From: Bacillus sp. ISL-41
Lineage (GTDB): Bacteria > Bacillota > Bacilli > Bacillales > Cytobacillaceae
DNA: 35,279 bases
Assembly: GCF_018613235.1 (NCBI RefSeq)
Contig: NZ_JAGGQP010000055.1
Location: forward strand, 1-35,279
Reading direction: 5' to 3'
Of the stretch, positions 9,159 through 35,279 are shown one piece after another (position 1 is the first letter of the stretch; each line of letters begins with the position of its first letter). Under the pieces are notes generated by a model. It was not told where the DNA came from, ran no database searches, and saw only the letters and a list, made by a program, of their open reading frames with translations. The translations under genes were made by a program, and so were the position numbers.

Positions 9159-10093
9159 AATCGTGACAACTTTAAGGCTCTCGCGCCCAAACCTGTCACG
9201 ATTCCGAAGTTTTCTTGACAACTTTTCCACTTTCACGCCAAAACCTGTCATGATTACGAGGGTTTCTTGACAGCTTTTCTGCTCTCACGCCCAAAACTGT
9301 CATGATTCTGAGGTTTTCTTGACAGCTTTTCGGCTCTCGCGCCCAAACCTGTCACGATTACGAGGGTTTCTTGACAACTTTTCCACTTTCACGCCAAAAC
9401 CTGTCACGATTACGGGATTTTCTTGACAGCTTTTCCTCTTTCACGTGCAAACCTGTCACGATTACGGGATCTTCTTGACAGCTTTTCCACTTTCACGCCC
9501 AAACCTGTCACGATTACGGAGTTTTCTTGACAACTTTTCCACTTTCACGCCCAAACCTGTCACGATTCCGAGGTTTTCTTGACAGCTTTTCCTCTTTCAC
9601 GTGCAAACCTGTCACGATTACGGAGTTTTCTTGACAACTTTTCCACTTTCACGCCAAAACCTGTCACGATTACGGGATTTTCTTGACAGCTTTTCCTCTT
9701 TCACGTGCAAACCTGTCATGATTACGGGATTTTCTTGACAGCTTTTCCTCTTTCACGTGCAAACCTGTCACGATTACGTGGTTTTCTTGACAACTTTTCC
9801 ACTTTCAAGCCCAAACCTGTCACGATTCTGAGGTTTTCTTGACAGCTTTTCGGCTCTCGCGCCCAAACCTGTCACGATTCCAGGGGTTTCTTGACAGCTT
9901 TTCGGCTCTCGCGCCCAAACCTGTCACGATTCCAGGGGTTTTTTGACAGCTTTTCGGCTCTCGCACCCAAACCTGTCACGATTCCAGGGGTTTTTTGACA
10001 ACTTTTCGGCTCTCAAGCCCAAACCTGTCTGAACCTGGGCCTACTTCTGACAGCTTTTCTTCTTTTCCTCGCAAACCTGTCACAACAGTCACC
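9159..10093 (+). repeat. 52-bp dyad repeat array 1 (18 units, no indels)
   Basis: Eighteen units start at 9162, 9214, 9266 and so on every 52 bp to 10046, with no insertion or deletion. Each unit has TTGACA[G/A] (GACA at offset 4-7), then CTTTTC, a variable 13-nt block, AAAC, CTGTC (TGTC at offset 33-36) and ACGATT. All 36 GACA/TGTC half-sites are intact while the spacers vary. Three spacer types recur: GGCTCTCGCGCCC at both ends, CACTTTCACGCC and CTCTTTCACGTGC mixed in the middle. The first unit begins with AATCGTGACA, the exact inverse of the internal TGTCACGATT. The array fills the gap between the convergent nos and ybaK genes. 52 is not a multiple of 3, so it is not coding. Confidence 0.95.
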
Positions 10094-10106
10094 TGATCCG
10101 GTATGA

Positions 10107-10595
10107 TTAGCCTCTTTTTACCGTAACCAGGTCGGCATACTTCCCTTCAGTCGCCTGGATCAGCTGCTCTGGTGCCAATTCGACCTGGAAGCCAATCTTT
10201 CCTGCGCTGACGATGATGGAATCCAACTCCTGGGCGCTTTCATCCAAAAACGTAGGATAATTCTTTTTCATGCCGATTGGTGAACAGCCTCCGCGGATAT
10301 AGCCGGTAAATTTCTGGATATCCTTGACCGGGAGCATTTCCACTTTCTTTTCGCCTGCTTCCTTCGCTGCCTTTTTCAGATCGAGCTCGCCTTCGACCGG
10401 AATGACGAAGACGTATAAACCCTTGCTTGCCCCCACTGCTACGAGCGTCTTGTAGACCTGTGAAGCATCGCGACCTATTTTCCCAGCAACGGCTACACCG
10501 TCAATCTTGCCATCCTTCGAGTCATAAGTCAGAATCTCATACGGCACCTTCTGTGTGTCGAGAATACGCATTGCGTTCGTTTTAACCTTAGCCAT
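10107..10595 (-). CDS. ybaK: YbaK-type Cys-tRNA(Pro)/Cys-tRNA deacylase
   Basis: This 162-residue trans-editing enzyme hydrolyses mischarged Cys-tRNA(Pro). The sequence shows the family hallmarks: the conserved Lys (VYKTL, Lys49), the [V/I]PVEGELDLKK segment, the GYIRGGCSPIGMKK loop, and a D-E-S-A...SAGKIGFQVEL stretch. Length is typical of the single-domain form. The RBS AGGAGG lies 7 bases upstream of the ATG. It is about 80 bp downstream of the UDP-glucose dehydrogenase gene in the same orientation, with no strong terminator between them. Confidence 0.9.
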   Translation of the reverse strand: MAKVKTNAMRILDTQKVPYEILTYDSKDGKIDGVAVAGKIGRDASQVYKTLVAVGASKGLYVFVIPVEGELDLKKAAKEAGEKKVEMLPVKDIQKFTGYIRGGCSPIGMKKNYPTFLDESAQELDSIIVSAGKIGFQVELAPEQLIQATEGKYADLVTVKRG

Positions 10596-10676
10596 CCTGG
10601 TTCCTCCTAATTTGAAGGTGTTTAGGATAATTTTACCTTAGAGAAGGTGGACGATTCAATCACGTTCTCTTCAGGT

Positions 10677-12017
10677 TTAGCCCTGAAGTCTTGAGTTTTC
10701 CAGATTCCGATTCACATTCACAGCCTTCCTGCCAACGGAAACATATGTTAAACCAGCTGACTCCGCTTCGGCCAGGTCATAGCAGTTCCTTCCGTCAAAA
10801 ATAGCCGGCTCGCGCATGAGTAAAGGGAAACGCTCTAAATCATATTGGGCGATTTGCGGCCACTCGGTCATGATGAAGACGACATCAGCCCCTTTAATTG
10901 CACCATCGACTGTCTCTGCGTAATAGAGCCGGCTGCCAAAAAGGTCTGCGGCATTGCCGGAAGCAGCCGGATCATAGACAGAAATGTCCGCCTGAGCTTC
11001 CAGCAGCCTGTATATCAGCTCAACAGCTGGCGCCTCGCGGATGTCATCAGTATGCGGCTTGAATGCGAGGCCCAGAACAGCCACCCTTTTTCCCTGAAGA
11101 TTCCCAAGCAGTTCGCAGGCTTTCTCAAACAGCTGCTGCTTCTGCCTGCTGTTCACCTCGATCACGGACCGGAGGATTTTAAAATCATAATTATAGTAAT
11201 CGGTCAGCTTTTCCAGTGCCTTCGTATCCTTCGGGAAGCATGAACCGCCATAGCCAGTCCCCGCTTTTAAAAATTGGCTGCCAATCCGTTCGTCCATGCC
11301 CATTCCTTTTGCGACATCTTCAATATTTGCGCCTGTGTGTTCACACAAATTAGCCACTTCATTGATGAAGCTTATTTTCGTCGCCAGAAAGGCATTAGAT
11401 GCATACTTGATGAGCTCCGCGCTGCGAATATCTGTCTGTAAAATCGGCCGGCCAAAAGGTTTATATAAATCAGCGACCGCACGGCCCGCCTCATGATCAT
11501 CTGACCCGACGACAATCCGGTCTGCATGGAATGTATCTAGAATTCCCGAGCCTTCACGCAGAAACTCAGGATTTGAAACGACTTTCACCTGGACCTTGTC
11601 CGGAATAATCTTCTGAAGCTTCTTATAAACTCTCTCATTTGTCCCTACCGGCACGGTGCTTTTAATGACTATGACTGCATCTCTTGTCAGATTCATGCCA
11701 ATCTGCTCAACCGCTGCCTCCAGGTATTCAAGGTTCGCCGACCCGTCCTCATTTTCAGGTGTACCGACAGCGATAAAAAGGTAATCCGCATTTTTACAGG
11801 CCAATTTCGAATCGAATGTAAAACGAAGCCGGCCTTCATTTAGATTCCTTTTGAGCATCTCTTCAAGACCGGGCTCATAAATTGGACATCTTCCTTCAGA
11901 CAGGACAGCAACTTTACGTTCATCTATATCAAAACAAGTTACACTGTATCCTACTTCTGCAAAACAAACTCCGGTGACAAGGCCAACATAGCCTGTCCCG
12001 ACAACTGTGATTTCCAT
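10677..12017 (-). CDS. ugd: UDP-glucose 6-dehydrogenase
   Basis: This enzyme oxidises UDP-glucose to UDP-glucuronate with two NAD+, feeding uronate-containing polysaccharides (teichuronic acid or exopolysaccharide). The 446-residue length is normal. The Rossmann motif is GTGYVGLVTG (residues 7-16), the substrate Lys lies in ELIKYASNAF (Lys204), and the catalytic Cys is Cys260 in GYGGSCFPKD. The C-terminal domain has LGLAFKPHTDDIREAPA. It belongs to the UDP-glucose/GDP-mannose dehydrogenase family; TuaD and YwqF are B. subtilis relatives, so the exact orthology is uncertain. The stop codon sits in a short hairpin (CTTCAGG...CCTGAAG) without a T-run. GGAGGG precedes the ATG. Confidence 0.88.
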   Translation of the reverse strand: MEITVVGTGYVGLVTGVCFAEVGYSVTCFDIDERKVAVLSEGRCPIYEPGLEEMLKRNLNEGRLRFTFDSKLACKNADYLFIAVGTPENEDGSANLEYLEAAVEQIGMNLTRDAVIVIKSTVPVGTNERVYKKLQKIIPDKVQVKVVSNPEFLREGSGILDTFHADRIVVGSDDHEAGRAVADLYKPFGRPILQTDIRSAELIKYASNAFLATKISFINEVANLCEHTGANIEDVAKGMGMDERIGSQFLKAGTGYGGSCFPKDTKALEKLTDYYNYDFKILRSVIEVNSRQKQQLFEKACELLGNLQGKRVAVLGLAFKPHTDDIREAPAVELIYRLLEAQADISVYDPAASGNAADLFGSRLYYAETVDGAIKGADVVFIMTEWPQIAQYDLERFPLLMREPAIFDGRNCYDLAEAESAGLTYVSVGRKAVNVNRNLENSRLQG

Positions 12018-12196
12018 ATTGGCCCTCCATTCTGTTGCTCTTATTTTATCACGTTGCGGCTCCTTCCCTCTTCAATTCGCTCTATTTGGTAAAAACTTGT
12101 CTATCCAGAATATTAGCGGGTAAAAGGAAAAATAGCATGATTTTCACTAAACAAGGAAAAATTAGTTATTATGAAGAATTTTAAGGAGGATTGTTG

Positions 12197-13732
12197 ATGA
12201 ACGATTATACTTCAAAGCTGCCGCGTTTTCCTGAACCCTACTGGCGAAAAACCGCCGAGCTGCCAACTTTTCCAAAGCTGCAGGAGGATTTGAAGGTCGA
12301 TGTCGCTGTCATTGGCGGCGGGATTACAGGATTGACTTCTGCCTATTTGCTTGCCAAGGCTGGGGTAAAGGTTGCCGTCATTGAAGCCGGCTCCATATTG
12401 AACGGCACCACAGGCCATACAACCGCAAAGGTGACCGCACAGCATGGCGTCATTTATGATGAGCTGATCAGCCATCATGGTGAGGAAAAGGCACGTCTTT
12501 ATTACCAGGCCAACTATGAAGCGATGCAGTTTGTCAAAGACATTGTCAAAGAGCAGCAAATCGACTGTGATTTATCAGTTGAGGATGCCTACATCTATAC
12601 GAATTCCGAAAAGGAAATGGAGAAGCTGCTAAAAGAGTTCAAAGCTTATGAAAAGCTTGGTGTTGACGGCAGTGAGTATGTTTCTGAGGTTCCACTGCCT
12701 GTGGAAGCAAAAGCCGGGATTGTGATGCGCAGCCAGGCGCAGTTCCACCCGCTTAAATTTTTAAAGCATCTTGTTGAGCGTTTTACAGAAATGGGCGGCC
12801 AACTCTTCGAGAATACAACTGCTGTCGATATGGAGGAAGGCTCCGAGCCTGTCGTTACAACCCGTGATGGCCATAAGGTGCGCTGCAATCAAATGATCGT
12901 CAGCACCCATTATCCTTTTTATGATCTAAAAGGGTTCTATTTTTCAAGAATGACTCCCGAAAGATCTTATGTGCTTGCGGTAAAAACCGAGAAGGAGTTC
13001 CCGGGCGGCATGTTCATCAATGCCGAGCAGCCTACCCGCTCGCTCCGTTATACTGATTGGAACGGAGAAAAAATCGTCTTGTTTGGCGGTGACAGCCATA
13101 AAGTCGGCCATAAAACGAATACGCATCAATACTATGAAGCACTCGAGGCATTCGCCCACCAGACATTTGGCGTAAAGGAAATCCCGTTCAGATGGTCTGC
13201 GCAGGATCCTGTTCCTTTCGATAAGATTCCATTTGTCGGCCAGTACTCAACAGCTACAGACAATATCTATGTAGCAACCGGCTATCGCAAATGGGGAATG
13301 TCCAATGGCATCAATGCCGCCATCATGTTAAGTGACCAGGTTCTGAAGAAGGATAACCCATATAAAGAAGTGTTTGATCCGCAGCGTTTCAAGGCAGATC
13401 CTGAACTGCGCAAAATCATTTCAACTAATGCACATATTGCGAAAACCCTTGTGAAAGGAAAGCTGGAACGCCCTTCAACCCAGGCGACATCGCTTGAAAA
13501 TGATGAGGGCGCATCTGTGACAGTAAACGGGAAGCGCGCCGGCGCCTATCGCGATGAAAACGGCCAGCTTCACGTCGTCGATACAACATGTACCCATATG
13601 GGCTGCGAACTCGAGTGGAATAACGGCGAGCGTACATGGGACTGCCCGTGTCACGGCTCAAGGTTCTCCTACAAAGGAGATGTCCTTGAAGGTCCAGCCG
13701 AACTGCCGCTGAAAAAAGTTGATTTTGAATAA
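12197..13732 (+). CDS. yhfW: FAD-dependent oxidoreductase with C-terminal Rieske domain (YhfW-like)
   Basis: The 511-residue protein has an N-terminal DAO-type FAD domain with VAVIGGGITG (residues 37-45 region) and a HTTAKVTAQHG segment. The C-terminal Rieske [2Fe-2S] domain has ligands Cys465-x-His467 and Cys483-x-x-His486 (CTH, then CPCH). It likely couples flavin oxidation of an unknown amine or other substrate to a one-electron iron-sulfur carrier in the cytoplasm. The architecture matches B. subtilis YhfW. ATG 12197 is chosen because AAGGAGGA ends 6 bases upstream; two in-frame TTG codons lie too close to that site. A strong bidirectional terminator follows. Confidence 0.87.
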   Translation: MNDYTSKLPRFPEPYWRKTAELPTFPKLQEDLKVDVAVIGGGITGLTSAYLLAKAGVKVAVIEAGSILNGTTGHTTAKVTAQHGVIYDELISHHGEEKARLYYQANYEAMQFVKDIVKEQQIDCDLSVEDAYIYTNSEKEMEKLLKEFKAYEKLGVDGSEYVSEVPLPVEAKAGIVMRSQAQFHPLKFLKHLVERFTEMGGQLFENTTAVDMEEGSEPVVTTRDGHKVRCNQMIVSTHYPFYDLKGFYFSRMTPERSYVLAVKTEKEFPGGMFINAEQPTRSLRYTDWNGEKIVLFGGDSHKVGHKTNTHQYYEALEAFAHQTFGVKEIPFRWSAQDPVPFDKIPFVGQYSTATDNIYVATGYRKWGMSNGINAAIMLSDQVLKKDNPYKEVFDPQRFKADPELRKIISTNAHIAKTLVKGKLERPSTQATSLENDEGASVTVNGKRAGAYRDENGQLHVVDTTCTHMGCELEWNNGERTWDCPCHGSRFSYKGDVLEGPAELPLKKVDFE

Positions 13733-13734
13733 AC

Positions 13735-13766
13735 GAAGCCGCCATTCATATTTGAGTGGCGGCTTT
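13735..13766. terminator. Bidirectional intrinsic terminator
   Basis: GAAGCCGCCA pairs with TGGCGGCTTT(C) around a 12-nt loop directly after the yhfW-like stop codon. Its T-run is short on the plus strand. Confidence 0.8.
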
Positions 13767-13801
13767 CATTATGCCCAAAGGGAATTTATTGAATTGTTCA
13801 T

Positions 13802-13905
13802 AACTGGGATTGTCCTGGCCACAACCGGGAATATTTCGCTCCCAACCGGGATTAAATCGCTCTCAATATCGCTCCCAAAGGTAAGAAACCTGGCTAACGG
13901 GGATT
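13802..13905. repeat. Imperfect 21-bp phased repeat array
   Basis: AACTGGGAT, AACCGGGAA and AACCGGGAT start at 13802, 13823 and 13844, exactly 21 bp apart. The accompanying TCGCTC[C/T] blocks occur at 13836, 13857 and 13869, the last one out of step by a 9-bp deletion. Degenerate copies continue to about 13905. The array lies between the convergent ends of the yhfW-like and thioredoxin-reductase-like genes. Confidence 0.7.
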
Positions 13906-13916
13906 AATCACAATCA

Positions 13917-14816
13917 CTATCCTTTATCCGCTAAAAGTGTCTTATGAATCCAGATGCTTGCCTGCATGCCATCTCCCATAGCGATCGTTGTCTGTTCCGA
14001 ATGAGCGACTACGTCACCTGCAGCCCAGACGTTCTCGACGTTGGTCATTTTGGTCCGCGGATCCACTAAAACATGCTTGTTCTTGTGAAGGTCGACGCCG
14101 AGCTGTTGTGCGAGCTGTGATTTCACTTCATTCCCGCCAAAGGCCATGAAGCCGCGTTCAGAAGTCAGCTTCTCACCGTTTGCTAGCATAATTCCTCTGA
14201 AGTCAGGCCCGTCCGCCAGCACCTTTTCAATCGGCCCTTCCACATACGTAATGCCTTTTTCCTTCAATGCTTCCATTTTTTCCTCATCCACTTCTTTGTT
14301 TTCGTGATTGACATAGGTGAGTTTATTCGTAAAATAGTTCAAGGTCAGTGCCATGTTCGCACCAGGATTACCGGACCCCATCACGATTGTAGACTTGTCT
14401 TTCACTTCATGCCCATCGCAATCTGGACAAATATACACACTGATTCCAAGCGTGGGCATCAGCTCAGGAAATGGGGGAATCCGATCCATGACGCCCGTGG
14501 CAAGAAGCAGAGTCTTCGCCTTATATGTTTCGCCGCTCTCCGCCTTTACTTCGAACCCATACGCCATCTTTTCGGCACTATCTGCCTTGCCAATCACAAA
14601 CTCCACACCATATTGCTCAGCCTGCTTGCGGCCGATTTCTCTTAAGTGAGGTCCGCTTACTCCATCCGGATAGCCAAGAATATTATGGTAGCTCTGGCAA
14701 ATCGCTGACCGGCCATCCCCAGCGTCAAGCACCATCACATTATGATTGTAACGCCCAAGCTGAATCGCCGCCTGGAGCCCGGCAATCCCGCCTCCAACTA
14801 TAAGGCAATCATACAT
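13917..14816 (-). CDS. Thioredoxin-reductase-like FAD/NAD(P) oxidoreductase
   Basis: This 299-residue flavoprotein has an FAD motif GGGIAG (residues 8-13), a pyridine-nucleotide motif GSGNPGANMA (near 147) and a C-terminal ENVWAAGDV FAD-binding motif, in the order of thioredoxin reductases. The redox-active pair is CPDC at residues 130-133 in YICPDCDGHE, where classical TrxB has a CAxC motif followed by DG. It is therefore probably a disulfide or quinone-type reductase of the TrxB superfamily with a different partner, rather than the housekeeping enzyme. It is transcribed alone, divergent from the membrane-protein gene at 15014. Confidence 0.82.
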   Translation of the reverse strand: MYDCLIVGGGIAGLQAAIQLGRYNHNVMVLDAGDGRSAICQSYHNILGYPDGVSGPHLREIGRKQAEQYGVEFVIGKADSAEKMAYGFEVKAESGETYKAKTLLLATGVMDRIPPFPELMPTLGISVYICPDCDGHEVKDKSTIVMGSGNPGANMALTLNYFTNKLTYVNHENKEVDEEKMEALKEKGITYVEGPIEKVLADGPDFRGIMLANGEKLTSERGFMAFGGNEVKSQLAQQLGVDLHKNKHVLVDPRTKMTNVENVWAAGDVVAHSEQTTIAMGDGMQASIWIHKTLLADKG

Positions 14817-15013
14817 ACCGATCCACCGCCTTCTTAAAAAGTATCATAATAGCATGTTTCCCTTTTTAACTGGGGTGTAATCCGGTTTATTCCTGCTTGA
14901 AAATCTAAAACATATTTTCTCAATTTTCCTATAAACACTAGTTTTGTCGAACACCACTAAATTACTACTTTGGCACTATGTAATCAGTTATAATAAAAGC
15001 GAGGTGGATAATA

Positions 15014-16075: not shown

Positions 16076-16086
16076 TCGCTTTTTTA
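16056..16086 (+). terminator. Intrinsic terminator overlapping a stop codon
   Basis: AGCGGTCACT (16056-16065) pairs with AGTGATCGCT (16071-16080) and is followed by TTTTTATT. The stop codon of the membrane-protein gene lies inside the right arm. Confidence 0.85.
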
Positions 16087-16124
16087 TTGCTACATTTCCC
16101 AAGCAATATTAATAATCTGCAGAT

Positions 16125-16247
16125 AAAGGCGATAATCTCTCAAAAAAGAGCAATATTCTCTCAGTTAAAATCAATATTCTCTCGGTGAAACATGTTATTC
16201 TCTCAATGCAAGCCCGTAATCTCTCATTCAGGTGACATATTCTCTCA
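16125..16247. repeat. Six-unit 21-bp phased TCTCTCA array
   Basis: TCTCTC[A/G] blocks start at 16136, 16157, 16178, 16199, 16220 and 16241, exactly 21 bp apart in every step. Most are preceded by an A/T-rich AATAT or TTAT, and 11-14 bases between blocks are variable. The period is two helical turns and also seven codons, so the minus strand reads as a spurious heptad-repeat peptide. The array lies between the terminators of two convergent genes. Confidence 0.88.
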
Positions 16248-16258
16248 TTTATCCAAAA

Positions 16259-16292
16259 AAAGTAAAAATCCAGCCGCACAAAAGCGACTGGG
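16259..16292 (-). terminator. Intrinsic terminator of pgmB
   Basis: On the minus strand CCAGTCGC pairs with GCGGCTGG (one G-T pair) around TTTTGT and is followed by ATTTTTACTTTTTTT. It lies about 12 bp after the pgmB stop codon. Confidence 0.8.
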
Positions 16293-16303
16293 TTCCTCAT
16301 CTC

Positions 16304-16972
16304 TTAGCCATTATATACTTCTACGATTTTTTCCAACGAAAGCTCAGCCGTGCTTGCATAGACGATATCGGCATTCTCGAAGCTTTCCTTTGGACCTACG
16401 GCAACAGCGAACATTCCTGCTGATTTGATTGCCTGTACGCCTGCTGCGGCATCCTCGACACCGATGCATGCTTCTGGCTCAACACCAAGCATTTCTGCAG
16501 CGCGCAGGAATACTTCAGGATGCGGCTTGCCGTTCACGACTGTTTTCGCGTCAACTATGATATCAAACTCGGCTTTCATTCCAAGCGACTCCATCACGGT
16601 GAACGCGTTTTTGCTTGCGGACGCAAGGCCCAGCTTAAGACCTTTAGCCTTAATATCCGAGATCAATTCCTTGATAGCCGGCAGCAGGTCATTAGGAGTG
16701 ATATTCTGGATTAATGTCAGGTAATGCTCATTCTTCTTCTCAGCCAGTGATTCTTTTTCCTGAGCTGAAAAATCCCCGGAACGGCCGCCCAGCTCAAGAA
16801 TTTTTTCGAGGGAATCCATCCGGGACACGCCCTTCAGCTCCTCGTTATCTTCGCGGGTAAAAGTAATGCTCAAATTCTCGGCCAGCGCCTTCCACGCTAA
16901 AAAGTGGTATTCCGCAGTATCCGTAATGACCCCATCAAGGTCGAAAATAAATGCTTTTAATGGTCTGGTCAT
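16304..16972 (-). CDS. pgmB: Beta-phosphoglucomutase
   Basis: PgmB converts beta-glucose 1-phosphate, the product of maltose phosphorylase, to glucose 6-phosphate. The 222-residue HAD-fold protein has FDLDGVITD with nucleophile Asp11 and acid/base Asp13, cap residues GVSRMDSLEKIL, GLASASKNA, KPHPEVFL and GVEDAAAG. All match the beta-PGM subgroup. ATG 16972 is chosen because AAAGGAG lies 7 bases upstream; a longer in-frame reading from 17053 lacks a ribosome site. It lies downstream of mapA in the same orientation, but 277 bp of repeat-containing DNA separate them. Confidence 0.93.
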   Translation of the reverse strand: MTRPLKAFIFDLDGVITDTAEYHFLAWKALAENLSITFTREDNEELKGVSRMDSLEKILELGGRSGDFSAQEKESLAEKKNEHYLTLIQNITPNDLLPAIKELISDIKAKGLKLGLASASKNAFTVMESLGMKAEFDIIVDAKTVVNGKPHPEVFLRAAEMLGVEPEACIGVEDAAAGVQAIKSAGMFAVAVGPKESFENADIVYASTAELSLEKIVEVYNG

Positions 16973-17031
16973 GATCAAACTCCTTTCACGATTCTTTCTC
17001 ATCTTCACGATACACATTGTTGTGGTGATTT

Positions 17032-17186
17032 TTAGACATTTGATTCCATTCACACTCTAAAATGTCTATTAAAACCTGTTTCTTAGACATTTTGAGTTTA
17101 ATCACACTTCAAAATGTCCATTAAGGCCTGTTTCTTAGACATTTTGATTCCATTCACACTTCAAAATGTCCATTAAAACCGCCATA
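17032..17186. repeat. 52-bp dyad repeat array 3 (three units) between mapA and pgmB
   Basis: Units start at 17032, 17083 and 17135 (51 and 52 bp; the first lacks one T). Each holds AGACATTTTGA and, after about 12 nt, its inverse TCAAAATGTC[C/T]. The cores GACA and TGTC fall at offsets 4-7 and 33-36 (one less in the first unit), the same geometry as the arrays at 9159 and 34841 although the surrounding sequence differs. Unusually it lies between two co-directional genes of one pathway rather than between convergent genes. Confidence 0.9.
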
Positions 17187-17249: not shown

Positions 17250-19541
17250 TTATTTCAATTTTACAGAAAGCTCGCCATCTGCAGGGATCGTTACGTCTTC
17301 TCCGTAAAGCTTCATGGCAAGTTCTGGTCCTTGCTGCGTGAGGATGACGTTTTCCTGGTTCACTTCTACCTTGATATGGTGGTCGCGGTAGAGGATGTTG
17401 AAGCTGTACTGGTTCCATGCTTTCGGGATGAACGGTGCGAATGACAATGTGCCTTCCGCTGTGCGCATGCCTGCGAAGCCCTGGACAATAGCAAGCCATG
17501 CACCAGTCATGCTGGTGATGTGCAGGCCGTCTTCTGTATCGTTATTGTAGTTATCAAGGTCAAGGCGCGCCGTGCGGTTATACATTTCGTACGCCTTTTC
17601 TTCCATCCCAAGCTCTGCTGCAAGCACTGCGTGGATACTTGGTGACAGTGATGACTCATGGACCGTCATTGGCTCATAGAATTCAAAGTTGCGGCGCTTC
17701 TCTTCTTCCTTGAATTCATGGTTGAAGAAGTATAGGCCCTGTAATACGTCAGCCTGCTTGATGAAGCAGCTGCGCAGGATTTTATCCCATGACCAGTTCT
17801 GGTTGATCGGGCGGTCTTCGGCTGAAAGCTCATCCACCGCCATTAAATCTTTATCAAGGAATGTATCGTGCTGGACGAAGACACCTTTTTCTTCATCATA
17901 AGGGAAGTACATTTTCTCGATAATATCCTGCCATTTCGCAAGCTCGGCGTCAGAGAACTCAAGGCCTGCGAGGCGGTTCTCATGGCCGTTCTGCTTAAGG
18001 AGCTCGATGACTTCTAGCGTGTATCGCAATGTCCAGACAGCGATACGGTTTGTGTACCAGTTGTTGTTGACATTGTTTTCGTATTCATTCGGCCCTGTTA
18101 CGCCATGCATCATGTAGACGTTCTTGGACTTGTTGAAGTGGACGCGGTCTGCCCAGAAACGGGAAATGCCGGCGAGCACGTCAATACCGTATTCATGGAG
18201 GTAATTTTTATCTCCTGTGTAATTTACATAGTTATAGATCGCATAGGCAATCGCACCGTTTCGGTGGATTTCCTCAAACGTGATTTCCCACTCGTTGTGG
18301 CACTCGACGCCTGTAAAAGTAACCATTGGGTAAAGCGCGCCATTCAGGCCCTGCTGTTTCGCATTATGGTAGGCACCATCAAGCTGGTTGTGGCGGTAGA
18401 TCAACAGGTTTCGAGAAACCTCAGACTCCGCCGTAGAAAGGTATAGCGGGATTGCGTAAGCCTCTGTATCCCAGTAAGTCGCACCGCCGTACTTTTCACC
18501 TGTAAAACCTTTAGGGCCGATGTTCAGGCGTGAGTCTTCACCATAGTATGTCGAGAATAGCTGGAACAAGTTAAAACGGATGCCCTGCTGTGCTTCATCA
18601 TCGCCTGCAATCTCAACATCAGCAATATCCCAGCGGCTCAGCCAGCCATTTCGGTGTTCTTCCAATAGCTCTTCAAAGCCTTTTACAATTGAACGCGCAA
18701 GCACTTCGCGACCTTTAAAAACAAGTTCGCCAGCTTGGTAATCACGGTCTGTTGTAACAGCGACATACTTATAAAGGGTAACAGTTTGCCCTTGCTCAGC
18801 TTTAACTTCGATGACATTTTCAACGTATTCTTCTTTTTCACTAACTTCGACTTTGGTTACATTCCCTTCGACAACCGTTTGCATAGTTGTCGCTACCTGG
18901 AAAGTCGGAGTTCCGAATGGATTGTCTTTCGTCTTCATCACAAGGCTGCCATTATGTTCTGAAGCATCCCTGCTCACTTCATACCAGAAGTCCTCGTCAT
19001 AGTTGGAATCTTCGTTGCGCACGTCCCCATCGAGGTAAGGAACAAAGGTAACGTTTCCATTATAGTTCTTGGCAGTAACTGAATACTTGATCGCAGCCAG
19101 TTCTTTGTCAGCAACCGACAGGAAGCGAATGGCTTCCACTTCTGTTTCCTTGCCGTTCTGGATGACTGTAAAACGGCGTGTCAAGACACCGTGCTGCATA
19201 TCAAGCTCACGGTAGTAATCGCTTACTTCAGCATTGTGAAGATCCAATTCCTCTCCATCAATAAATACTTTGATACCGATAAAATTCGTTGAGTTAATGA
19301 CCTTTCCAAAATAGTGCGGATAGCCATTTTTCCACCAGCCTACGCGCGTTTTGTCTGGGAACCAGACGCCTGCAATATATGAACCGCGATGAAAGTCTCC
19401 AGTATATGTTTCTTCATAGTTTCCGCGCATGCCCATATGGCCATTTCCAAGGCTCATGATGCTTTCAGCAAGCCGGAAATCTTCTTTATGCAAGTCCGTT
19501 TCGACGATCTTCCAGCTATCAATGCCAAATAATCTTTTCAT
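17250..19541 (-). CDS. mapA: Maltose phosphorylase (GH65)
   Basis: This enzyme splits maltose with phosphate into beta-glucose 1-phosphate and glucose in the cytoplasm. The 763-residue length is standard for GH65. Recognisable stretches are MGMRGNYEE (36-44), [11 protein letters not shown] (55-65), ATYWDTEAY (354-362) and GPNEYENN (483-490), in which Glu486 corresponds to the catalytic general acid. [18 protein letters not shown] (413-430) is also family-typical. The N terminus is closer to maltose than to trehalose or kojibiose phosphorylases as I recall them, and the co-directional pgmB supports that. AAAAGGAG precedes the ATG. Expression is probably controlled by the operator at 19569-19578. 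Confidence 0.9.
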
Positions 19542-27227: not shown

Positions 27228-27232
27228 AGTAT

Positions 27233-27264
27233 AGGGTGCTCATCCTTTTGTGGATGGGCCTATT
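27233..27264. terminator. Hairpin between convergent genes
   Basis: TAGGGTGCTCATCC pairs imperfectly with GGATGGGCCTA around TTTTGT, between the SWIM-protein gene and the HAD gene. The T-run behind it is weak (TTTAAATT). Confidence 0.55.
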
Positions 27265-27268
27265 TAAA

Positions 27269-27733: not shown

Positions 27734-27794
27734 GAATAGTCCCCCTCATTTCTGATAGAATAACGTTATTATACACCTGCATGGAGGATGTTAG

Positions 27795-28334: not shown

Positions 28335-28351
28335 TGTCCAGCGCCTTTCTT
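28320..28351. terminator. Bidirectional intrinsic terminator overlapping a stop codon
   Basis: AAAGGCGCTGGA (28320-28331) pairs perfectly with TCCAGCGCCTTT (28337-28348), followed by CTTTT. The stop codon of the DHFR-like gene lies at the loop and the convergent DUF4179 gene ends just beyond. Confidence 0.9.
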
Positions 28352-29332: not shown

Positions 29333-29843
29333 CGCGCTCGCCTCCCAATCTATTTTTCAATTCCTTCCTGCCCCGCTGCAGATAGGTTTTCACGGTGTTT
29401 TCAGGTATGTCCATCATTCTAGCAATTTCACTTATTGCCAGGTCATGATAATAAAACAGGATAATCGCGGTCCGATGCTGAGCTTTCAATAGAGTGATTG
29501 CCTCCATTAAATCAAGATTCTCTGCCAGCTTGGAGTCACTGTTTGTAGGCAGTTCTACTAGTTTCTCTACTGGCAGTTCTTTTTTTCTTTTTTTCAAAAC
29601 ATCGTAAGCGCAATGGATTAAAATCCTCGTCAGCCAGGTTAAAAAGTATTGTTCATTCTTCAGCTGCCCGATCGCCTGGAATGCTTTGCAGGAGGTTTCC
29701 TGGACGATATCAAGAGCATCCTCCCTGTTCCCCGCATATAAAAAAGCGGTTCTATACAATCGTTCACTATGTATAATCAGCAGTTCTTCAAAGGCTTTGG
29801 CATTCCCCCTGACTGCTTTCTTCACAAGCTTTGCTTCTTTCAT
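29310..29843 (-). CDS. ECF-type RNA polymerase sigma factor
   Basis: The 177-residue protein contains sigma region 2 (ERLYRTAFLYAG...DIVQETSCKAF...FLTWLTRILIHCAYDVLKK) and region 4 (LKAQHRTAIILFYYHDLAISEIARMM, then IPENTVKTYLQRGRKEL), with no region 3: the ECF layout, similar to SigV-type factors. ATG 29843 is chosen because AAAGGAGGT lies 7 bases upstream; a reading six codons longer would start inside that site. It heads an operon with the DUF4179 gene and has a candidate ECF promoter upstream. Confidence 0.9.
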   Translation of the reverse strand: MKEAKLVKKAVRGNAKAFEELLIIHSERLYRTAFLYAGNREDALDIVQETSCKAFQAIGQLKNEQYFLTWLTRILIHCAYDVLKKRKKELPVEKLVELPTNSDSKLAENLDLMEAITLLKAQHRTAIILFYYHDLAISEIARMMDIPENTVKTYLQRGRKELKNRLGGERDGKENIS

Positions 29844-29863
29844 TCCCTGACCTCCTTTCACTC

Positions 29864-29896
29864 TTTAGAGCATAATCAGGTAAAAAAAGTTTCAAC
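29864..29896 (-). promoter_or_regulatory. Candidate ECF promoter for the sigma operon
   Basis: On the minus strand TGAAAC (near 29896) is followed by a T-run and, after about 16-17 bp, GCTCTA. TGAAAC is the usual -35 of SigM/V/W/X-type ECF factors, while the -10 fits poorly to CGTC or CGTATA. It lies just upstream of the sigma gene, so autoregulation is plausible. Confidence 0.4.
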
Positions 29897-29980
29897 TTTT
29901 CCGAGATATTTTTCTAGTCCTAAAGTAATATATAGTAATAAATGGAAGTTTACTATAGAATTTACGAAAGAGGTGACAAT

Positions 29981-31030
29981 ATGGGGTTTTTCTTTCGCAA
30001 GCCTGATTTTTACATTCCTGAAGGCGGAATCGACAGGATTGAAGATATTACACTTGGAGGATTCCAACAGACCATCCTCATCCAGTCCTACTCACCCAAG
30101 AACCCGGTACTGCTGTTTTTACACGGCGGTCCTTCCATGCCTCTGCCTGGCGTCTCTTCCAGAGGGAACAACTATACTGTCGCTACCAGCACCCAAGAGC
30201 TGGTTAAGCACTTCACCCTTGTCTTTTGGGACCAGCGAGGCACAGGCAAATCCTATCACAAAGATATTCCACAAACATCCATGACCTTTGAACAGCTTGT
30301 ATCCGATGCAGCTGAGCTGACGGATTTTTTAAGAGAAACGTTCCATCAGGAAAAAATCTTCCTGGCCGCTCATTCATTCGGTACCTTAATTGGCATGTAC
30401 CTTTTGAAAAAACAACCTGGTAAATTCCACTCCTATGTAGGCATCTCGCAGATTATCAGCTGGACAGAAAATGACCGTGCAGGCCTTGCCTGGGTGAAAG
30501 AAGAAGCCAAACGGCGAGGTAATTATAAAGCGCTGAATGAATTGGAGGCAGTTGGCGAACCTCCTTTTATCGAAGGCTATAAGCAATGGGGGATTTTACG
30601 AAAATGGCAGATGAGATACAGTACGATGGTCTATAACGATAATCAAATCAAGCATCCTGGCCTTGCCAAGGTGTCCCTTAGCATGCTTGCTTCAAGGGAC
30701 TATCGGTTGGCTGATGCTTTCCATTCCTTTTACAGCGGCTTTAAGCTTATCTATTCTGACGAATTCATCCGGAATATCCCGAACATTAATGTGCAAAAAG
30801 AGGTACCATCTGTTGATATCCCTGTCACCTTCATTCATGGCAGGAAAGATGTCCATGTTCATGCCCATTTTGCTGAAGACTATCTCATTCTCCTAAAAAC
30901 GAACCATGAGAAAAAATTCATATGGATGGAGAAATCAGCCCATCTTTTTCACCCGGATGATACAGCACTGATCGAAAAGCACCTTATCAATGAATTAAGT
31001 CATATTAAAGCAGAGGTTATTAATCTATGA
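29981..31030 (+). CDS. Alpha/beta hydrolase, proline-iminopeptidase-like
   Basis: The 349-residue enzyme has the oxyanion motif LFLHGGPSMP (HGGP at 48-51), WDQRGTGKSY (83-92), nucleophile Ser122 in AHSFGT, Asp in HGRKDVHVH and His in KSAHLFHPDD. HGGP and WDQRG are typical of prolyl iminopeptidases (S33), but substrate cannot be read from the sequence. ATG 29981 is chosen because AGAGGTG lies 7 bases upstream; a longer reading from 29942 has no ribosome site. The stop overlaps the next gene by 4 bp. Confidence 0.87.
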   Translation: MGFFFRKPDFYIPEGGIDRIEDITLGGFQQTILIQSYSPKNPVLLFLHGGPSMPLPGVSSRGNNYTVATSTQELVKHFTLVFWDQRGTGKSYHKDIPQTSMTFEQLVSDAAELTDFLRETFHQEKIFLAAHSFGTLIGMYLLKKQPGKFHSYVGISQIISWTENDRAGLAWVKEEAKRRGNYKALNELEAVGEPPFIEGYKQWGILRKWQMRYSTMVYNDNQIKHPGLAKVSLSMLASRDYRLADAFHSFYSGFKLIYSDEFIRNIPNINVQKEVPSVDIPVTFIHGRKDVHVHAHFAEDYLILLKTNHEKKFIWMEKSAHLFHPDDTALIEKHLINELSHIKAEVINL

Positions 31031-31899
31031 AAACTATTTATAAAAGCCTGGAAGGAAAAGAGCGGATACTCGGCCAGTATGAAGAGTATCTCACTCAGTT
31101 CGATTCACCGATTTCAAGGGACTATGTCCAGACGAGATTCGGCAGCACGCATGTACTGGTAATGGGGAAGGAAGACGGGAAGCCTTTATTTATTTTTCAG
31201 GGCGGCAATTGCATCAATCCTGTCACCCTTTCATGGTTCAGAGGCTTGCTGGAGGAATATAAGGTCTACGCACCTGACACGATTGGCCATCCGGGATACA
31301 GTGATGAAACGAGAATCTCCGCTTCTGACGAAAGCTTTGCCCAATGGATTGCCGATTTGATGGACCATTACGAGATTGAAAAATGCGCATTCATCGGCCC
31401 ATCTTACGGAGGCGGCATCATCCTCAGGCTTGCTGCATTTATGCCAAAAAGAATCCACTGCGCTGTCCTTGTCGCACCTGCAGGGATCAGCCTTGGCTCG
31501 AAGCTTAAAATGATTAAGGAAATACTTGTCCCAATGGTTTTTTATAAAATAAACGGATCTGCCCAGAGTCTGCGCAAAATTGCTGATGCGATGTCCTTCA
31601 ATAGCATGAAGCAACTGGATGAAAGCATCATCGGCAATATTTTCAAACACACAACACTTGAACAAGATATGCCCAAACTGACAACTGCGGAGGAACTGAG
31701 AAATTACAGTGCCCCGACCCTTGTCATAACGGGAACTGAGGATGTATTTTTTCCAGGAAACAAAATTTCCCATAAAATACAAGGACTTTTAGGTGACGAA
31801 CTAGAATTGAAAAAGTACCAAATGGGACATTTCCCATCTTCCAAATATCTTGAACAAATCGATACAGATATAAAGGAATTTTTGAAAAAACATTACTAG
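31027..31899 (+). CDS. Second alpha/beta hydrolase
   Basis: This 290-residue hydrolase has a shortened oxyanion region (FIFQGGNCIN instead of HGG), nucleophile Ser126 in GPSYGGG, Asp in GTEDVFFPG and His in MGHFP. Its sequence differs markedly from the preceding hydrolase, so it is not a recent duplicate. It starts within the stop of the preceding gene (ATGA), implying coupling. The role is unknown; ester or carbon-carbon hydrolysis are both possible. Confidence 0.85.
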   Translation: MKTIYKSLEGKERILGQYEEYLTQFDSPISRDYVQTRFGSTHVLVMGKEDGKPLFIFQGGNCINPVTLSWFRGLLEEYKVYAPDTIGHPGYSDETRISASDESFAQWIADLMDHYEIEKCAFIGPSYGGGIILRLAAFMPKRIHCAVLVAPAGISLGSKLKMIKEILVPMVFYKINGSAQSLRKIADAMSFNSMKQLDESIIGNIFKHTTLEQDMPKLTTAEELRNYSAPTLVITGTEDVFFPGNKISHKIQGLLGDELELKKYQMGHFPSSKYLEQIDTDIKEFLKKHY

Positions 31900-31909
31900 G
31901 AGGCAAATC

Positions 31910-32284
31910 ATGCAATCGAATCCAGTTCAAAAAATCGGCCAAATTGGAATACCAGTAAAAGACATTGAAAGGGCCACTGCCTTTTACCAGGAAAAATTAG
32001 GGCTGTCGTTATTGTTCAATACGGATACGATGGCGTTCTTCGACTGTGAAGGCGTCCGCCTCCTGTTAACCCTTCCGGAGAACGAGCAATTTGCCCATCC
32101 TAGTTCAGTCATCTATTTACAGGTTGCAGATATCAAGGCAAAATACGAAGAGCTTTCAGGTAGTGTACAATTCATTGGAGAGCCGCATGTTGTTGCTAAA
32201 ATCGGCGATATGGAAACATGGATGGTGTTTTTTAAGGACTCTGAAGAGAATACCCATGCCTTTATGTCGGAGGTTATTTTATAA
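31910..32284 (+). CDS. VOC-family (glyoxalase/dioxygenase-fold) protein
   Basis: The 124-residue protein has the paired beta-alpha-beta-beta-beta modules of VOC proteins: IGQIGIPVKDIERATAFYQEKLGLSL, FDCEGVRLLL, then SVIYLQVADIKAKYEEL and WMVFFKDSEENTHAFMSE. A metal site of the Glu/His type is possible but not certain. It is the third gene of the hydrolase operon, 10 bp after the second hydrolase, with AGGAGG before the ATG. The function may be resistance or degradation of a small molecule. Confidence 0.85.
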   Translation: MQSNPVQKIGQIGIPVKDIERATAFYQEKLGLSLLFNTDTMAFFDCEGVRLLLTLPENEQFAHPSSVIYLQVADIKAKYEELSGSVQFIGEPHVVAKIGDMETWMVFFKDSEENTHAFMSEVIL

Positions 32285-32340
32285 GGCTATTTTCGTAACT
32301 TTGCGGTCAATAGCAACAAAGTTTGAGAAAAGAGCCTTTT
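32283..32340 (+). terminator. Long imperfect hairpin after the VOC gene
   Basis: AAGGCT/AGCCTT, TTTTC/GAAAA and AACTTTG/CAAAGTT stack into one long stem with small internal loops, followed by TTAT. The hairpin begins at the VOC stop codon. The weak T-run leaves it doubtful whether it terminates by itself; a second terminator follows. Confidence 0.55.
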
Positions 32341-32348
32341 ATAAAAAC

Positions 32349-32383
32349 AAAAAGGATACTGCCACTCGCGCAGTATCCTTTTT
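32349..32383. terminator. Bidirectional intrinsic terminator
   Basis: AAAAAGGATACTG (32349-32361) pairs perfectly with CAGTATCCTTTTT (32371-32383). It serves the hydrolase/VOC operon and the convergent GDSL-like gene, whose stop codon begins at the edge of the stem. Confidence 0.92.
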
Positions 32384-33257
32384 ACTGGATTGCCTTCAAT
32401 TCATTCTTTTTCAGGAACAGTTCAATTTGATGAGCCGCCATCATCCCTGCCGTACTGTTCAAATGCATTCCGTCGGTGAGCAGCAAGTATCCATTCCGGG
32501 CCGATATGCGATCCAGGCTGTAGCCGTATACGAAACGCTCGATGACCGCCTTTTCGTACAGCTTCGTGCTGTTTTTCAGCGATCGCCCTCGTGTGCGCCC
32601 TTTACCTTTTAAATAAGCCTTCAATTTTTCGTTAAAAGGAAGGTAAGATATATTGGACACCTCCGCAATTTTTTTGATGACCTCATTGTACTGGTCAATT
32701 TCCTTATTCGCTTTCGAGAAAAGATTCTCACCCACTACCGGAAGTGACAATAACCCTATTTTTGCATGTGTTTCTGCTTTCAGCCTTGCCACAATGAGGG
32801 CAAGATTCTTTTCGTACACCAATAATGAGGGCTTTTCTAATTGCTCTGCAAGCTTAATATTCATTCTGGCAAACTCAGGGGCTATTTTTGCCGCGGCATC
32901 ATTCAGTCCGACTAAAATCACGATGAAATCAGGTTGGCAGGAGATCACATTGTCCAAACGCTGCAGAACATCATAAGCCGTACTTCCATTGACTCCTGCA
33001 TTGATGAACTGATAATCCACGCAGCTGCGCCTCCTGGCTGCGTCATCGACAAAATTGTAGCTGATGTTGCCATGGACGGCATCCCCACCGATGACAGCCA
33101 CCAGCTTCTTGCCTTCCTGGCGATGCCCTTTTTCCAGAAAAGCTTGCGGATTGTTGGAAGGAAGCTGGTTGATCCGGCTCTTCCGCTGATAATACAGTGC
33201 CATACTTACAGCAGCCATTAATATTAGGACGAAAAACGCACCATAGATAAGTTCCAT
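32382..33257 (-). CDS. SGNH/GDSL-fold protein with Ala in place of the catalytic Ser
   Basis: The 291-residue protein has an N-terminal membrane anchor (about 5-22) and an SGNH-hydrolase-like domain. Block II Gly (NAGVNG), block III GLND (Asn119, Asp120) and block V DGMH (Asp262, His265) are intact. Block I reads GGDA (57-60) where GDS is expected: Ala60 (codon GCC) replaces the nucleophile Ser. The protein is otherwise complete and has a good RBS (GAGAGGGG), so it may be a pseudoenzyme that binds rather than cleaves a substrate, or it uses another residue. It is monocistronic. Confidence 0.8.
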   Translation of the reverse strand: MELIYGAFFVLILMAAVSMALYYQRKSRINQLPSNNPQAFLEKGHRQEGKKLVAVIGGDAVHGNISYNFVDDAARRRSCVDYQFINAGVNGSTAYDVLQRLDNVISCQPDFIVILVGLNDAAAKIAPEFARMNIKLAEQLEKPSLLVYEKNLALIVARLKAETHAKIGLLSLPVVGENLFSKANKEIDQYNEVIKKIAEVSNISYLPFNEKLKAYLKGKGRTRGRSLKNSTKLYEKAVIERFVYGYSLDRISARNGYLLLTDGMHLNSTAGMMAAHQIELFLKKNELKAIQ

Positions 33258-33463
33258 ATAAAACCCCTCTCTTAGAAAGCTTATTAATTAAAAATTCTGA
33301 ATTTATATAGTAAAATTATTCGACAAACCATGTAAAAATCCCTTTCACAGGAATATTTCGATGAACAAAAATCTTTTCTTGCCGATATTTTCATTATAGC
33401 CTTTTATGTTATGCAGCAGACAAAATAAATGGTACAAAAATTTCCACAAATCAAAAAATTACT

Positions 33464-33493
33464 TTGCAACTAGATTTATATTTAGGATAAAAT
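33464..33493 (+). promoter_or_regulatory. Promoter of the diguanylate cyclase gene
   Basis: TTGCAA (33464-33469) and TAAAAT (33488-33493) are 18 bp apart. A start site near 33500 would exclude the upstream ATG at 33496, supporting the start at 33529. Confidence 0.5.
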
Positions 33494-33528
33494 TAATGGT
33501 AGAGTTTGGGAAAGGGGATTTTCTGCCT

Positions 33529-34785
33529 ATGCTAAAAGCTAGGTTATATGACTTTTCATTGTTTTTCACTGCTATCGCCGTGGCTTTTGGACTAGGTGCG
33601 TTCACTATAGACAAGAATACTTTTTTGATAGCGTTATTGATCTACTGGTTATTTTCAACCCTTTACACCCATTTAAGGATTCATGCGCAAAGCGGAGCGA
33701 TGAAATTCGACTACGGAATTAGCTACAGTCTGTCTTTCGGGATTTTCGCGGGTCCGCTCGGTCTTTTCATTTTTGAAGCAATCTATCGCTTCACAGTCTA
33801 TTTTTCAAGAATAAGTTCGAAAACTGCCGATGAAAGTGAGCTTTCCGATACATTCTACAATATAGGCGCCCATGTGTTAATTTACTCAATTGGCTATTAC
33901 CTGTTTCATTTGGCATACCCGTTATTTGAAGGTATTCCTTTTGGATTCTGGATTTTAATGTGCATCCTTGCTGTGACGACGACGTTGATTTCCTATACAT
34001 TTCTATCAACGGCCTTTTATATTTTGGGAGAAATCAAAAACTTACAGCAGGCAATCAAATTTTACAAAGATAGCAATAACTGGCTGGACCTTGGGAAAAC
34101 AGCGTTCACAAATGGCTTGCTTCTGCTATTGCTTGAAGAGCAGCGTTGGGAAATGGTCGTAGGATTATTCATCCTGAACTATCTCGTCAGCCGTTCCTTC
34201 CAGTCAAAATCACAAAGCATCAAGAACAAAATTGAGCGAGACAAGTTCGAGCAAATGGCCTATACAGACTTCCTCACAGGCATTCCAAACCGTGCTTTCA
34301 TGGATAAAAAAATGTCCGAATTAAACCAGTCGGGTGAGACAGTCGGCATTGTCGTCGCCGATATCGATAAATTCAAGCTGATTAATGACTCCTATAACCA
34401 TGCTGTCGGAGACCGGGTCATCCAGCATTTTGCCAACACCCTTAAAACGTATTTATCCGAGAACGATTACGTCTTCCGCAGCGGCGGGGAAGAATTCACC
34501 TTGATCCTTAGGGAGAGAGCCTTTAGGGAGACTATCGAACTTGTGGAAAAAATCCGTCTTGGAGTCGAAACAAGCTCAGTTGAAGTCGATTATCAATCAA
34601 GCAGACATGATGTCATCATCACCTCTTCCTTCGGGCTATATTACTTCAAAGTAAACCAATATACCTCTATGGAAAAGGGCTATATCTACGCCGACCAGCT
34701 TTTGCTGCAATCGAAAGAACTCGGCAAAAATAAAGTCACCTTCAAGGACGAGCTTGCCCAGCACGCTCCGGTCGGTGCCATGTAA
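33529..34785 (+). CDS. Membrane-bound GGDEF diguanylate cyclase
   Basis: The 418-residue protein makes cyclic di-GMP from two GTP. Six to seven N-terminal helices form a sensor resembling the MASE/5TMR type (about 10-195, with a basic linker). The GGDEF domain begins near 247 (FEQMAYTDFLTGIPNRAFMD), and the active-site loop is GGEEF at 319-323. No RxxD inhibitory site lies five residues before it, so product inhibition is probably absent. ATG 33529 is preferred over upstream ATGs because AAAGGGG lies 11-12 bases before it and the likely transcript begins near 33500. The signal is unknown. Confidence 0.88.
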   Translation: MLKARLYDFSLFFTAIAVAFGLGAFTIDKNTFLIALLIYWLFSTLYTHLRIHAQSGAMKFDYGISYSLSFGIFAGPLGLFIFEAIYRFTVYFSRISSKTADESELSDTFYNIGAHVLIYSIGYYLFHLAYPLFEGIPFGFWILMCILAVTTTLISYTFLSTAFYILGEIKNLQQAIKFYKDSNNWLDLGKTAFTNGLLLLLLEEQRWEMVVGLFILNYLVSRSFQSKSQSIKNKIERDKFEQMAYTDFLTGIPNRAFMDKKMSELNQSGETVGIVVADIDKFKLINDSYNHAVGDRVIQHFANTLKTYLSENDYVFRSGGEEFTLILRERAFRETIELVEKIRLGVETSSVEVDYQSSRHDVIITSSFGLYYFKVNQYTSMEKGYIYADQLLLQSKELGKNKVTFKDELAQHAPVGAM

Positions 34786-34819
34786 AAAGACAGAGAGAGT
34801 GATTCTCTGTCTTTTTTGT
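34786..34819 (+). terminator. Intrinsic terminator of the cyclase gene
   Basis: AAAGACAGAGA (34786-34796) pairs with TCTCTGTCTTT (34804-34814) and is followed by more T residues. It begins directly after the stop codon. Confidence 0.9.
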
Positions 34820-34840
34820 GGGCTGGCGGTTTTGAGTTAT

Positions 34841-35279
34841 GTTATTGTGACAGCTTTTCTATTTTGAACCCCGAACCTGTCACAATAACGAGCTTTTCTC
34901 CTTCGCACCTCAAACCTGTCACAATTATGAGCTTTTCTTGACAACTTTTCTGCTTTGAACCCCAAACCTGTCACAATAACGAGCTTTTCTTGACAGCTTT
35001 TCTGCTTTGAACCCCAAACCTGTCACAATAACGAGCTTTTCTTGACAGCTTTTCTGCTTTGAACCCCAAACCTGTCACAATAACAAGCTTTTCTTGACAG
35101 CTTTTCTGCTTTGTAATCCAAACCTGTCACAATTATGAGCTTTTCTTGACAGCTTTTCTGCTTTGAACCCCAAACCTGTCACAATAACGAGGTTTTCTTG
35201 ACAGCTTTTCTGCTTTGGATCCCAAACCTGTCACAATAACGAGGTTTTCTTGACAGCTTTTCTGCTTTGGATCCCAAAC
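34841..35279 (+). repeat. 52-bp dyad repeat array 2 (at least eight units, cut by window edge)
   Basis: Units start at 34846, 34898, 34937, 34989, 35041, 35093, 35145, 35197 and 35249; the last is cut off by the end of the window. Each full unit is 52 bp with TTGACAG, CTTTTC, a variable block TGCTTTGAACCCC, AAAC, CTGTC and ACAATAACGAG. The second unit is 39 bp: a 13-bp deletion removed the GACA half-site. The first unit begins with GTTATTGTGACAG, the exact inverse of CTGTCACAATAAC at 34877-34889. The GACA and TGTC offsets equal those of the arrays at 9159 and 17032. Confidence 0.95.

Follow-up and report, generated by a model that had tools for sequence, protein, structure and literature searches.

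The 35,279-bp stretch of DNA analysed here (the window) is contig C51 of the 4.62-Mb draft genome of Bacillus sp. ISL-41 (label G000), and it contains three intergenic arrays of tandem repeats with a unit of about 52 bp (Table 1). Each unit carries two short, oppositely oriented half-sites in the geometry GACA-N25-TGTC-N19. A preliminary description of the window had reported this geometry with a 52-bp period in all three arrays, and it holds apart from two deviations. In array 2 (GACA at 17035, 17086 and 17138) the first of the spacers lacks one base (N24), and in array 3 one step measures 39 bp (13 bp are missing), the remaining visible steps being 52 bp. All three intergenic arrays of at least 100 bp in the window have a period of 51-53 bp. 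That selection does not act here on coding sequence, as had also been proposed, is supported, since the window arrays are intergenic and 52 is not a multiple of 3. Array 1 sits between convergent genes, and a Pfam scan of the 234-aa open reading frame (ORF) on its left gave no match. Array matches also lie within the first few hundred bases of contigs C6, C49, C52, C8 and C48 of the same genome. Since arrays stand at contig ends, as array 3 does, the assembly probably breaks in arrays and copy numbers are lower bounds.

Table 1. Repeat arrays of the window and the genes that adjoin them.
Feature	Coordinates	Strand	Description
Array 1	9165..10081	no strand	18 tandem GACA-N25-TGTC units, period 52, GACAGSTTT class; GACA at 9165, TGTC ending at 10081
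Array 2	17035..17170	no strand	3 units, GACATTTTGA/TCAAAATGTC class
Array 3	34849..35279	no strand	GACAGSTTT class, at least 7 units, runs into contig end
ORF left of array 1	8349..9053	+	234 aa; 3' end toward array
Gene right of array 1	10107..10595	-	aminoacyl-tRNA editing domain protein (PF04073); 3' end toward array
HAD-like hydrolase adjoining array 2	16304..16972	-	5' end toward array; start codon uncertain
Glycoside hydrolase family 65 protein	17250..19541	-	3' end toward array 2
GGDEF-domain protein	33406..34785	+	3' end toward array 3

Genomes were searched with a pattern of two consecutive units of exact GACA-N25-TGTC-N19 geometry, the reversed pattern serving as control. The window's own genome gave 315 exact tandem matches compared with 0 for the control. 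At the family level matches were found in 138 of 193 genomes and 17 of 25 genera, the control being silent in all 193. The further arrays on which the preliminary description had staked its idea of a common framework are thus abundant in this genome and its relatives. Even samples at the order and class levels, which together with the family sample share some genomes, gave matches in 67/397 genomes (28/135 genera; control 0) and 6/299 genomes (3/118 genera; one control match in one genome), respectively. A scan of named contigs returned at least 116 stretches (L009-L124), and among the matches listed nearly all were from Bacillus-type genera, the exceptions being two Trichococcus records, one metagenome-assembled genome of the Bacillota and four stretches labelled Chryseobacterium sp. 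ISL-80. The Trichococcus records (L090 and L100) contain a 3-unit match and extend the range beyond Bacillales, Trichococcus being a genus of the Lactobacillales. The Chryseobacterium label of the ISL-80 arrays (L017, L075, L096 and L097) is probably wrong because L017 and the window's genome share 85% identity over 4.4 kb. The nearest matches to the window's genome among the 116 named loci were Bacillus sp. ISL isolates and Mesobacillus, with 93% identity over 3.1 kb to L043 (Bacillus sp. ISL-45) and 77-85% identity between its stretch L155 and L016 (Mesobacillus subterraneus). In the IMG/VR viral collection (2.9 million contigs), a single contig, L125, had a 3-unit match (3480-3740, GACATTTTGA class); it may be host or provirus DNA from a relative of Mesobacillus, and on this lone contig a phage origin of the arrays was rejected.

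Because the search pattern fixes GACA, TGTC, N25 and N19, their conservation in the fetched loci is partly by construction; tandem-repeat finding, within-array variability and GC phase are partly or wholly independent of it. In 93 arrays from the window and from 80 of the 116 named loci, all fetched by the pattern, 542 of 551 steps were exactly 52 bp. Pattern-free tandem-repeat finding in 400 evenly spaced kb of the genome G402 gave a period of 52 for 15 of 18 distinct arrays of at least 80 bp, and in 800 evenly spaced kb of G074, a member of the window's genus, a period of 51-53 bp for 25 of 40 arrays of at least 100 bp. For period counts the own genome was sampled solely round known arrays.

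Outside the fixed bases, no position of the unit exceeded 0.57 bit in 72 non-redundant arrays. Within arrays, half-sites were about five times less variable than the other unit positions. The values were 0.024 and 0.112, respectively, in the pattern-scan set (lower at half-sites in 90/92 arrays) and 0.022 and 0.119 in arrays outside the pattern scan (lower in 42/42). The latter set, in which array 1 is counted twice (window and L166) and all 42 carry the motif in their consensus, came from 43 candidates: 22 from own-genome stretches round known arrays, 14 from orthologous loci, 5 from G402 and 2 from the window. Arrays terminate in either half-site type (in 80 named loci: left GACA 57, TGTC 35; right TGTC 47, GACA 42), so that fixed ends formed by one preferred module were rejected; ends of both types would follow if each half-site served as the binding unit. 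Lone sites outside arrays, some of which may be decayed arrays, comprised 31 copies of GACA-N25-TGTC (6-23 for other gap lengths of 10-40) and 17 copies of TGTC-N19-GACA (7-30 for other gaps).

GACA/TGTC is the commonest half-site pair, but it does not define the scaffold, which is wider and of which it forms the main class. By eye, we observed a GACC-N25-GGTC class in L042 and L083, a GACC-N25-GGGC class with N19 arms ACCAAT/ATTGGT in G074, a GGGC...GACC class in L151, a GGAA-N19-TTCC class in G402 and a GGGTAC class with a 53-bp period. Four kinds of array, GACA, GGGC/GACC, GGGTAC (53 bp) and CATAGAA, coexist in G074, and the 15 period-52 arrays of G402 comprise 6 of GACA type and 9 of GGAA type, again classed by eye. 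The exact motif is missing from 17 non-redundant arrays. When these are aligned on their best dyad, a procedure that itself draws on the half-site positions, GGTC or GGGC occupies the half-site place in 7; about four look like decayed GACA arrays and the remainder fit no class. Another genome of the window's genus, G081, has 0 GACA matches and a 20-copy 52-bp array of yet another sequence. The window's genome also has a separate ATAAGGGTAC class, with 53-bp arrays and long palindromes at L156 (17621-17898, stopping at the contig end) and L163 (4814-5015).

The suggestion that 52 bp corresponds to about five helical turns was borne out by the base composition of the unit. In 86 non-redundant GACA units with the fixed bases masked, GC content oscillated at the fifth harmonic (52/5 = 10.4 bp) with a power of 0.458, compared with a mean of 0.0014 and a maximum of 0.012 in shuffles and 0.065 for the runner-up of 19 harmonics. 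An alignment-free test gave z 15.5 for the fifth harmonic in 93 GACA arrays and z 6.1 in 17 other arrays, every other harmonic from 1 to 15 being at most 1.1. The ratio of observed to shuffled power was 2.53 in arrays and 1.23 in non-array intergenic 52-mers, and the mean power in 86 arrays was 0.639, compared with 0.387 for the top of 200 random groups of 93. The same phase was found in 18 published consensus repeats labelled 52 nt (z 7.1, reached by 0/1000 shuffles), just 4 of which contain TGTC-N19-GACA. AA/TT and SS steps run in antiphase along the unit, so that the 52 bp make five turns, each of which has an AT-rich and a GC-rich side. Half-sites and spacing are conserved, as the preliminary description had it, but they are not the only conserved features: the helical GC/AT phase is conserved too, and other half-sites stand on the same scaffold. 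In 16 non-redundant intergenic arrays with units of 39-44 bp, GC content oscillated at the fourth harmonic (z 11.4), and most of them matched themselves best at a shift of 20-21 bp. Array sizes appear to be quantised by helical turn. The window itself has short intergenic tandem repeats of 21 bp, or two turns, at 13822-13866 and 16125-16183.

These arrays are not a new class but belong to the 52-nt "constant size, variable sequence" repeats of Subirana and Messeguer (2021; PMC8161180), with which they share a period of 51-53, a non-coding location, several families per genome, variable copy number and occurrence in Bacillus in the old sense. The available text of that paper covers 176 Bacillus genomes, counts 1886 arrays with units of 51-53 nt and gives their function as unknown; it claims no sequence conservation, offers species-specific short signals and proposes protein polymerisation on DNA, a nucleoid idea included, or small RNAs (PMC8161180). 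It also describes a 20-21-nt constant-size class and its link to 40-41 nt. Its Table 1 species include B. selenatarsenatis and B. coagulans, and B. boroniphilus and B. subterraneus are named as sharing repeats; by eye, B. coagulans consensuses of that table match array classes of G402. Against its definition of at least four non-coding repeats, arrays 1 and 3 qualify with 18 and at least 7 units, and array 2, with 3, lies below the cut-off of four. Several families of equal period occur within G074 and within G402, and periods of 51-53 nt predominate in G074 (25/40) and the window (3/3). Within the portion of the text available, the words "palindrome" and "intergenic" do not occur and "helix" occurs once, about 20-21 nt (PMC8161180). 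Added here beyond that text are the cross-genus half-site framework, arm symmetry, the helical phase of 52 bp, within-array constraint and orthologous sites; the novelty of the half-site geometry and helical phase is claimed relative to that text alone.

The placement of the arrays was compared with that of gene gaps in general, with genes called by a simple longest-ORF rule that may be wrong in single cases; 7 arrays lay inside long, probably spurious ORFs. Among 149 placed 52-bp arrays, 86 were in co-directional, 47 in convergent and 16 in divergent gaps; 35 more were at locus edges. Divergent gaps made up 249 of 1027 comparison gaps of at least 100 bp, drawn from loci that coincide in part with those of the 149 arrays. 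Arrays are thus rarer in divergent gaps than expected from gaps generally. Arrays lay closer to 3' gene ends, with a median distance of 95 bp for 180 such ends, than to 5' gene ends, for which the median was 168 bp in 118 cases. On contig C1 of G074, in the region 2.17-3.07 Mb, none of the seven 20-kb stretches sampled from 2.27 to 2.97 Mb had a 51-53-bp array. This zone is near the GC-skew switch (~2.4-2.5 Mb) and has arrays on either side; many other stretches are empty too, and a depletion near the terminus, noticed after the fact, is possible.

Orthologous sites were located by the PF04073 gene for array 1 and the glycoside hydrolase family 65 gene for array 2. Repeated sites were present in 9 of 20 fetched loci of the genus at the array-1 site. 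At the array-2 site, with one locus per genome, 15 of 21 contained a 52-bp array or else two or more GACA-N25-TGTC sites, so that the GACA/TGTC match of array 2 persists within its own family of loci. Some loci of both sets are incomplete. Occupied and empty sites were both observed, and copy number varied at both positions; arrays at these two sites are therefore vertically inherited and change in length.

Dyad symmetry extends beyond the half-sites in part of the material. Across 72 non-redundant cross-genus arrays, the six bases flanking TGTC and GACA inside N19 were complementary beyond an across-array shuffle (z 4.7 to 9.7), with 30 distinct arms among the 35 arrays that have at least 5/6 bases paired. 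On the N25 side of this set there was no overall pairing excess (3.49 vs 3.50). In 25 arrays of the own genome, N19 arms were paired at 0.49 compared with 0.51 under the null, and N25 arms at 0.67 compared with 0.60, matched by 112/2000 shuffles. Since the own genome's N19 arms are not paired above the null, arm symmetry is a cross-genus tendency and not a universal part of the framework.

From the geometry, helical phase, half-site constraint, location and vertical inheritance at two sites, we infer at about even odds (a probability near 0.5) a double-stranded DNA lattice that would be bent once per turn and bound by a putative sequence-specific protein. The preliminary description had also read the arrays as a protein-binding lattice. 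Half-site constraint, five-turn phase locking and the lack of an RNA-hairpin sign in one test fit that proposal; its use of GACA/TGTC as the defining feature does not stand, and the nucleoid or boundary function that it raised is speculative. Each five-turn, 52-bp unit presents two oppositely oriented 4-bp half-sites, mostly TGTC/GACA and in other classes GGTC, GGGC and others, ~11.5 bp either side of a GC-rich centre, and the AT-rich stretches every 10.4 bp could let the DNA curve smoothly in one plane. Monomers of the putative protein would dock on the half-sites with their orientation alternating, at distances of 23 and 29 bp and all at a fixed rotational position, and may form a cooperative filament or wrapped complex. 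Given the rarity of arrays in divergent gaps and their nearness to 3' gene ends, the effect on the cell is likely local, with bent, topologically constrained DNA held between transcription units.

Several observations weigh against this lattice. No binder was identified, and by eye, in ORF translations, no neighbour gene was common to 23 loci, one each from genomes with 1-6 matches. Six regulator-like neighbours scanned from 6 of the 23 loci belong to different families of four helix-turn-helix (HTH) types (GntR twice, XRE-type HTH_3, MerR twice and LysR), and a neighbouring regulator as the cognate binder was rejected. Distribution is patchy; for example, G165 (genus g20) had no 51-53-bp array in 400 kb, which implies that the function is dispensable. 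The 20-copy array of G081 has weak dyad symmetry, and its fifth harmonic is not dominant. The cross-genus covariation of N19 arms is not explained by a single sequence-reading dimer and resembles selection for a hairpin or cruciform, although it is absent in the window's own genome. Several half-site classes in one genome would need several proteins or one shape-reading protein. An unlikely extension of the lattice reading is a general, sequence-flexible code in Bacillaceae chromosomes. Arrays would be quantised to whole turns (~21 bp = 2, 41-42 = 4, 52 = 5), each with 10.4-bp GC/AT phase and class-specific half-sites, and wrapped by related, differently specific proteins into chromatin-like filaments between transcription units.

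The main named rival, and the strongest named candidate for the bending part, is DNA gyrase. In this rather improbable account the arrays would be gyrase traps, the Gram-positive counterpart of BIME-2 (bacterial interspersed mosaic elements), in which phased DNA wraps GyrA C-terminal domains 3' of genes, where positive supercoils arise. Gyrases, that of B. anthracis included, prefer a GC periodicity of 10-11 bp, more so on positively supercoiled DNA (PMC12324340), and the E. coli gyrase motif, which spans 130 bp (PMC12393610), has phased G/C, with cleavage sites over-represented in BIME-2 (PMC6379681). Like strong gyrase sites, the arrays have 10-11 bp GC phasing over long stretches, and they face 3' ends oftener than 5' ends. 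They also resemble the BIME-2 and repetitive extragenic palindromic (REP) arrays of E. coli, clustered extragenic palindromic repeats for which a gyrase-mediated topological role has been proposed (PMC3733652, PMC6379681), but differ from them in their fixed 52-bp period. The exact tandem period and TGTC half-sites are absent from the gyrase motif as far as PMC6379681 and PMC12393610 describe it. The best match per unit to the cleavage core (G-N-A-N-G-N-N-C-N-T-N-C) equalled that of shuffles (3.919 vs 3.916, sd 0.063). At a few fixed offsets the core match was above shuffles (offset 22, 2.35/6 with z 4.3; offset 51, 2.26 with z 3.8), for which phasing alone might suffice. On the per-unit match, and in spite of those offsets, gyrase G-segment sites were tentatively set aside. 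The cleavage motif is centred between bases whereas array dyads are centred on a base. Gyrase is expected everywhere whereas arrays are patchy, and it leaves the conserved TGTC/GACA unexplained.

Doubtful to a similar degree is that the arrays are neutral or selfish satellites, in which recombination and template switching amplify helically phased short palindromes and purge arm mismatches with no dedicated binder. Variable copy number at orthologous sites, patchy presence, several sequence classes and cross-genus arms that are symmetrical without sequence conservation are consistent with this. The same half-site recurs at the same spacing across genera and families with a silent reversed control, and within arrays half-sites vary about fivefold less than other unit positions. 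Amplification by itself does not yield such a pattern.

A role as transcribed RNA (repeat hairpins or sponges), an option considered by Subirana and Messeguer, appears very unlikely. It would account for cross-genus arms inside TGTC-N19-GACA that pair far above chance and covary, and the B. coagulans 52-nt repeats are stated to be transcribed in the available text of PMC8161180. If RNA mattered, G-U should exceed A-C in the sense strand, and in 74 arrays between co-directional genes it did not significantly do so (200 vs 167, p 0.63). On this negative test and on the own genome's N19 arms, which do not pair above shuffle, an RNA hairpin was rejected. Nor does an RNA role explain a 10.4-bp GC phase or a fixed 25-nt linker; Rfam covariance models had 0 matches in the window at gathering score, and 47 of the 149 placed arrays lie between convergent genes.

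Other known systems fit less well. Clustered regularly interspaced short palindromic repeats (CRISPR), with identical repeats and unique spacers, do not match arrays in which both unit halves recur and drift together. In Tn3-family res sites the half-sites are of TGTC type with AT-rich flanks, and the centres of sites I and II are ~53 bp apart; arrays that recur at many loci and reach tens of units do not look like a resolution site, and the shared traits are a lead only. Miniature inverted-repeat transposable elements (MITEs) such as bcr1 are characterised by target-site duplication and dispersed single insertions; the observation here that bears on them is the presence of both occupied and empty orthologous sites. 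REPs are linked to Y1 (REP-associated tyrosine, RAYT) transposases and have a GTAG or CGTC tag beside a stem-loop, with TGTC often in the place of CGTC (PMC3733652). The array half-site TGTC agrees with this reported variant, but TGTC and GACA mark both strands here as a complementary pair of ends, and some array classes lack TGTC. The array-rich genomes G085 (543 matches) and G089 (544) had no PF01797 match, on which a Y1/RAYT mobile-element origin was rejected; G165 has 10 PF01797 matches and 0 arrays.

The published puzzle is a constant size of 52 nt with variable sequence. The physical answer suggested here is five helical turns with one bend per turn and half-sites at fixed places, and the helical phase is also present in published repeats from which it was not derived. 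The phase and half-site results make the puzzle directly testable. Arrays make up ~1.2% of the sampled DNA in one genome, so that a function, if real, would not be marginal.

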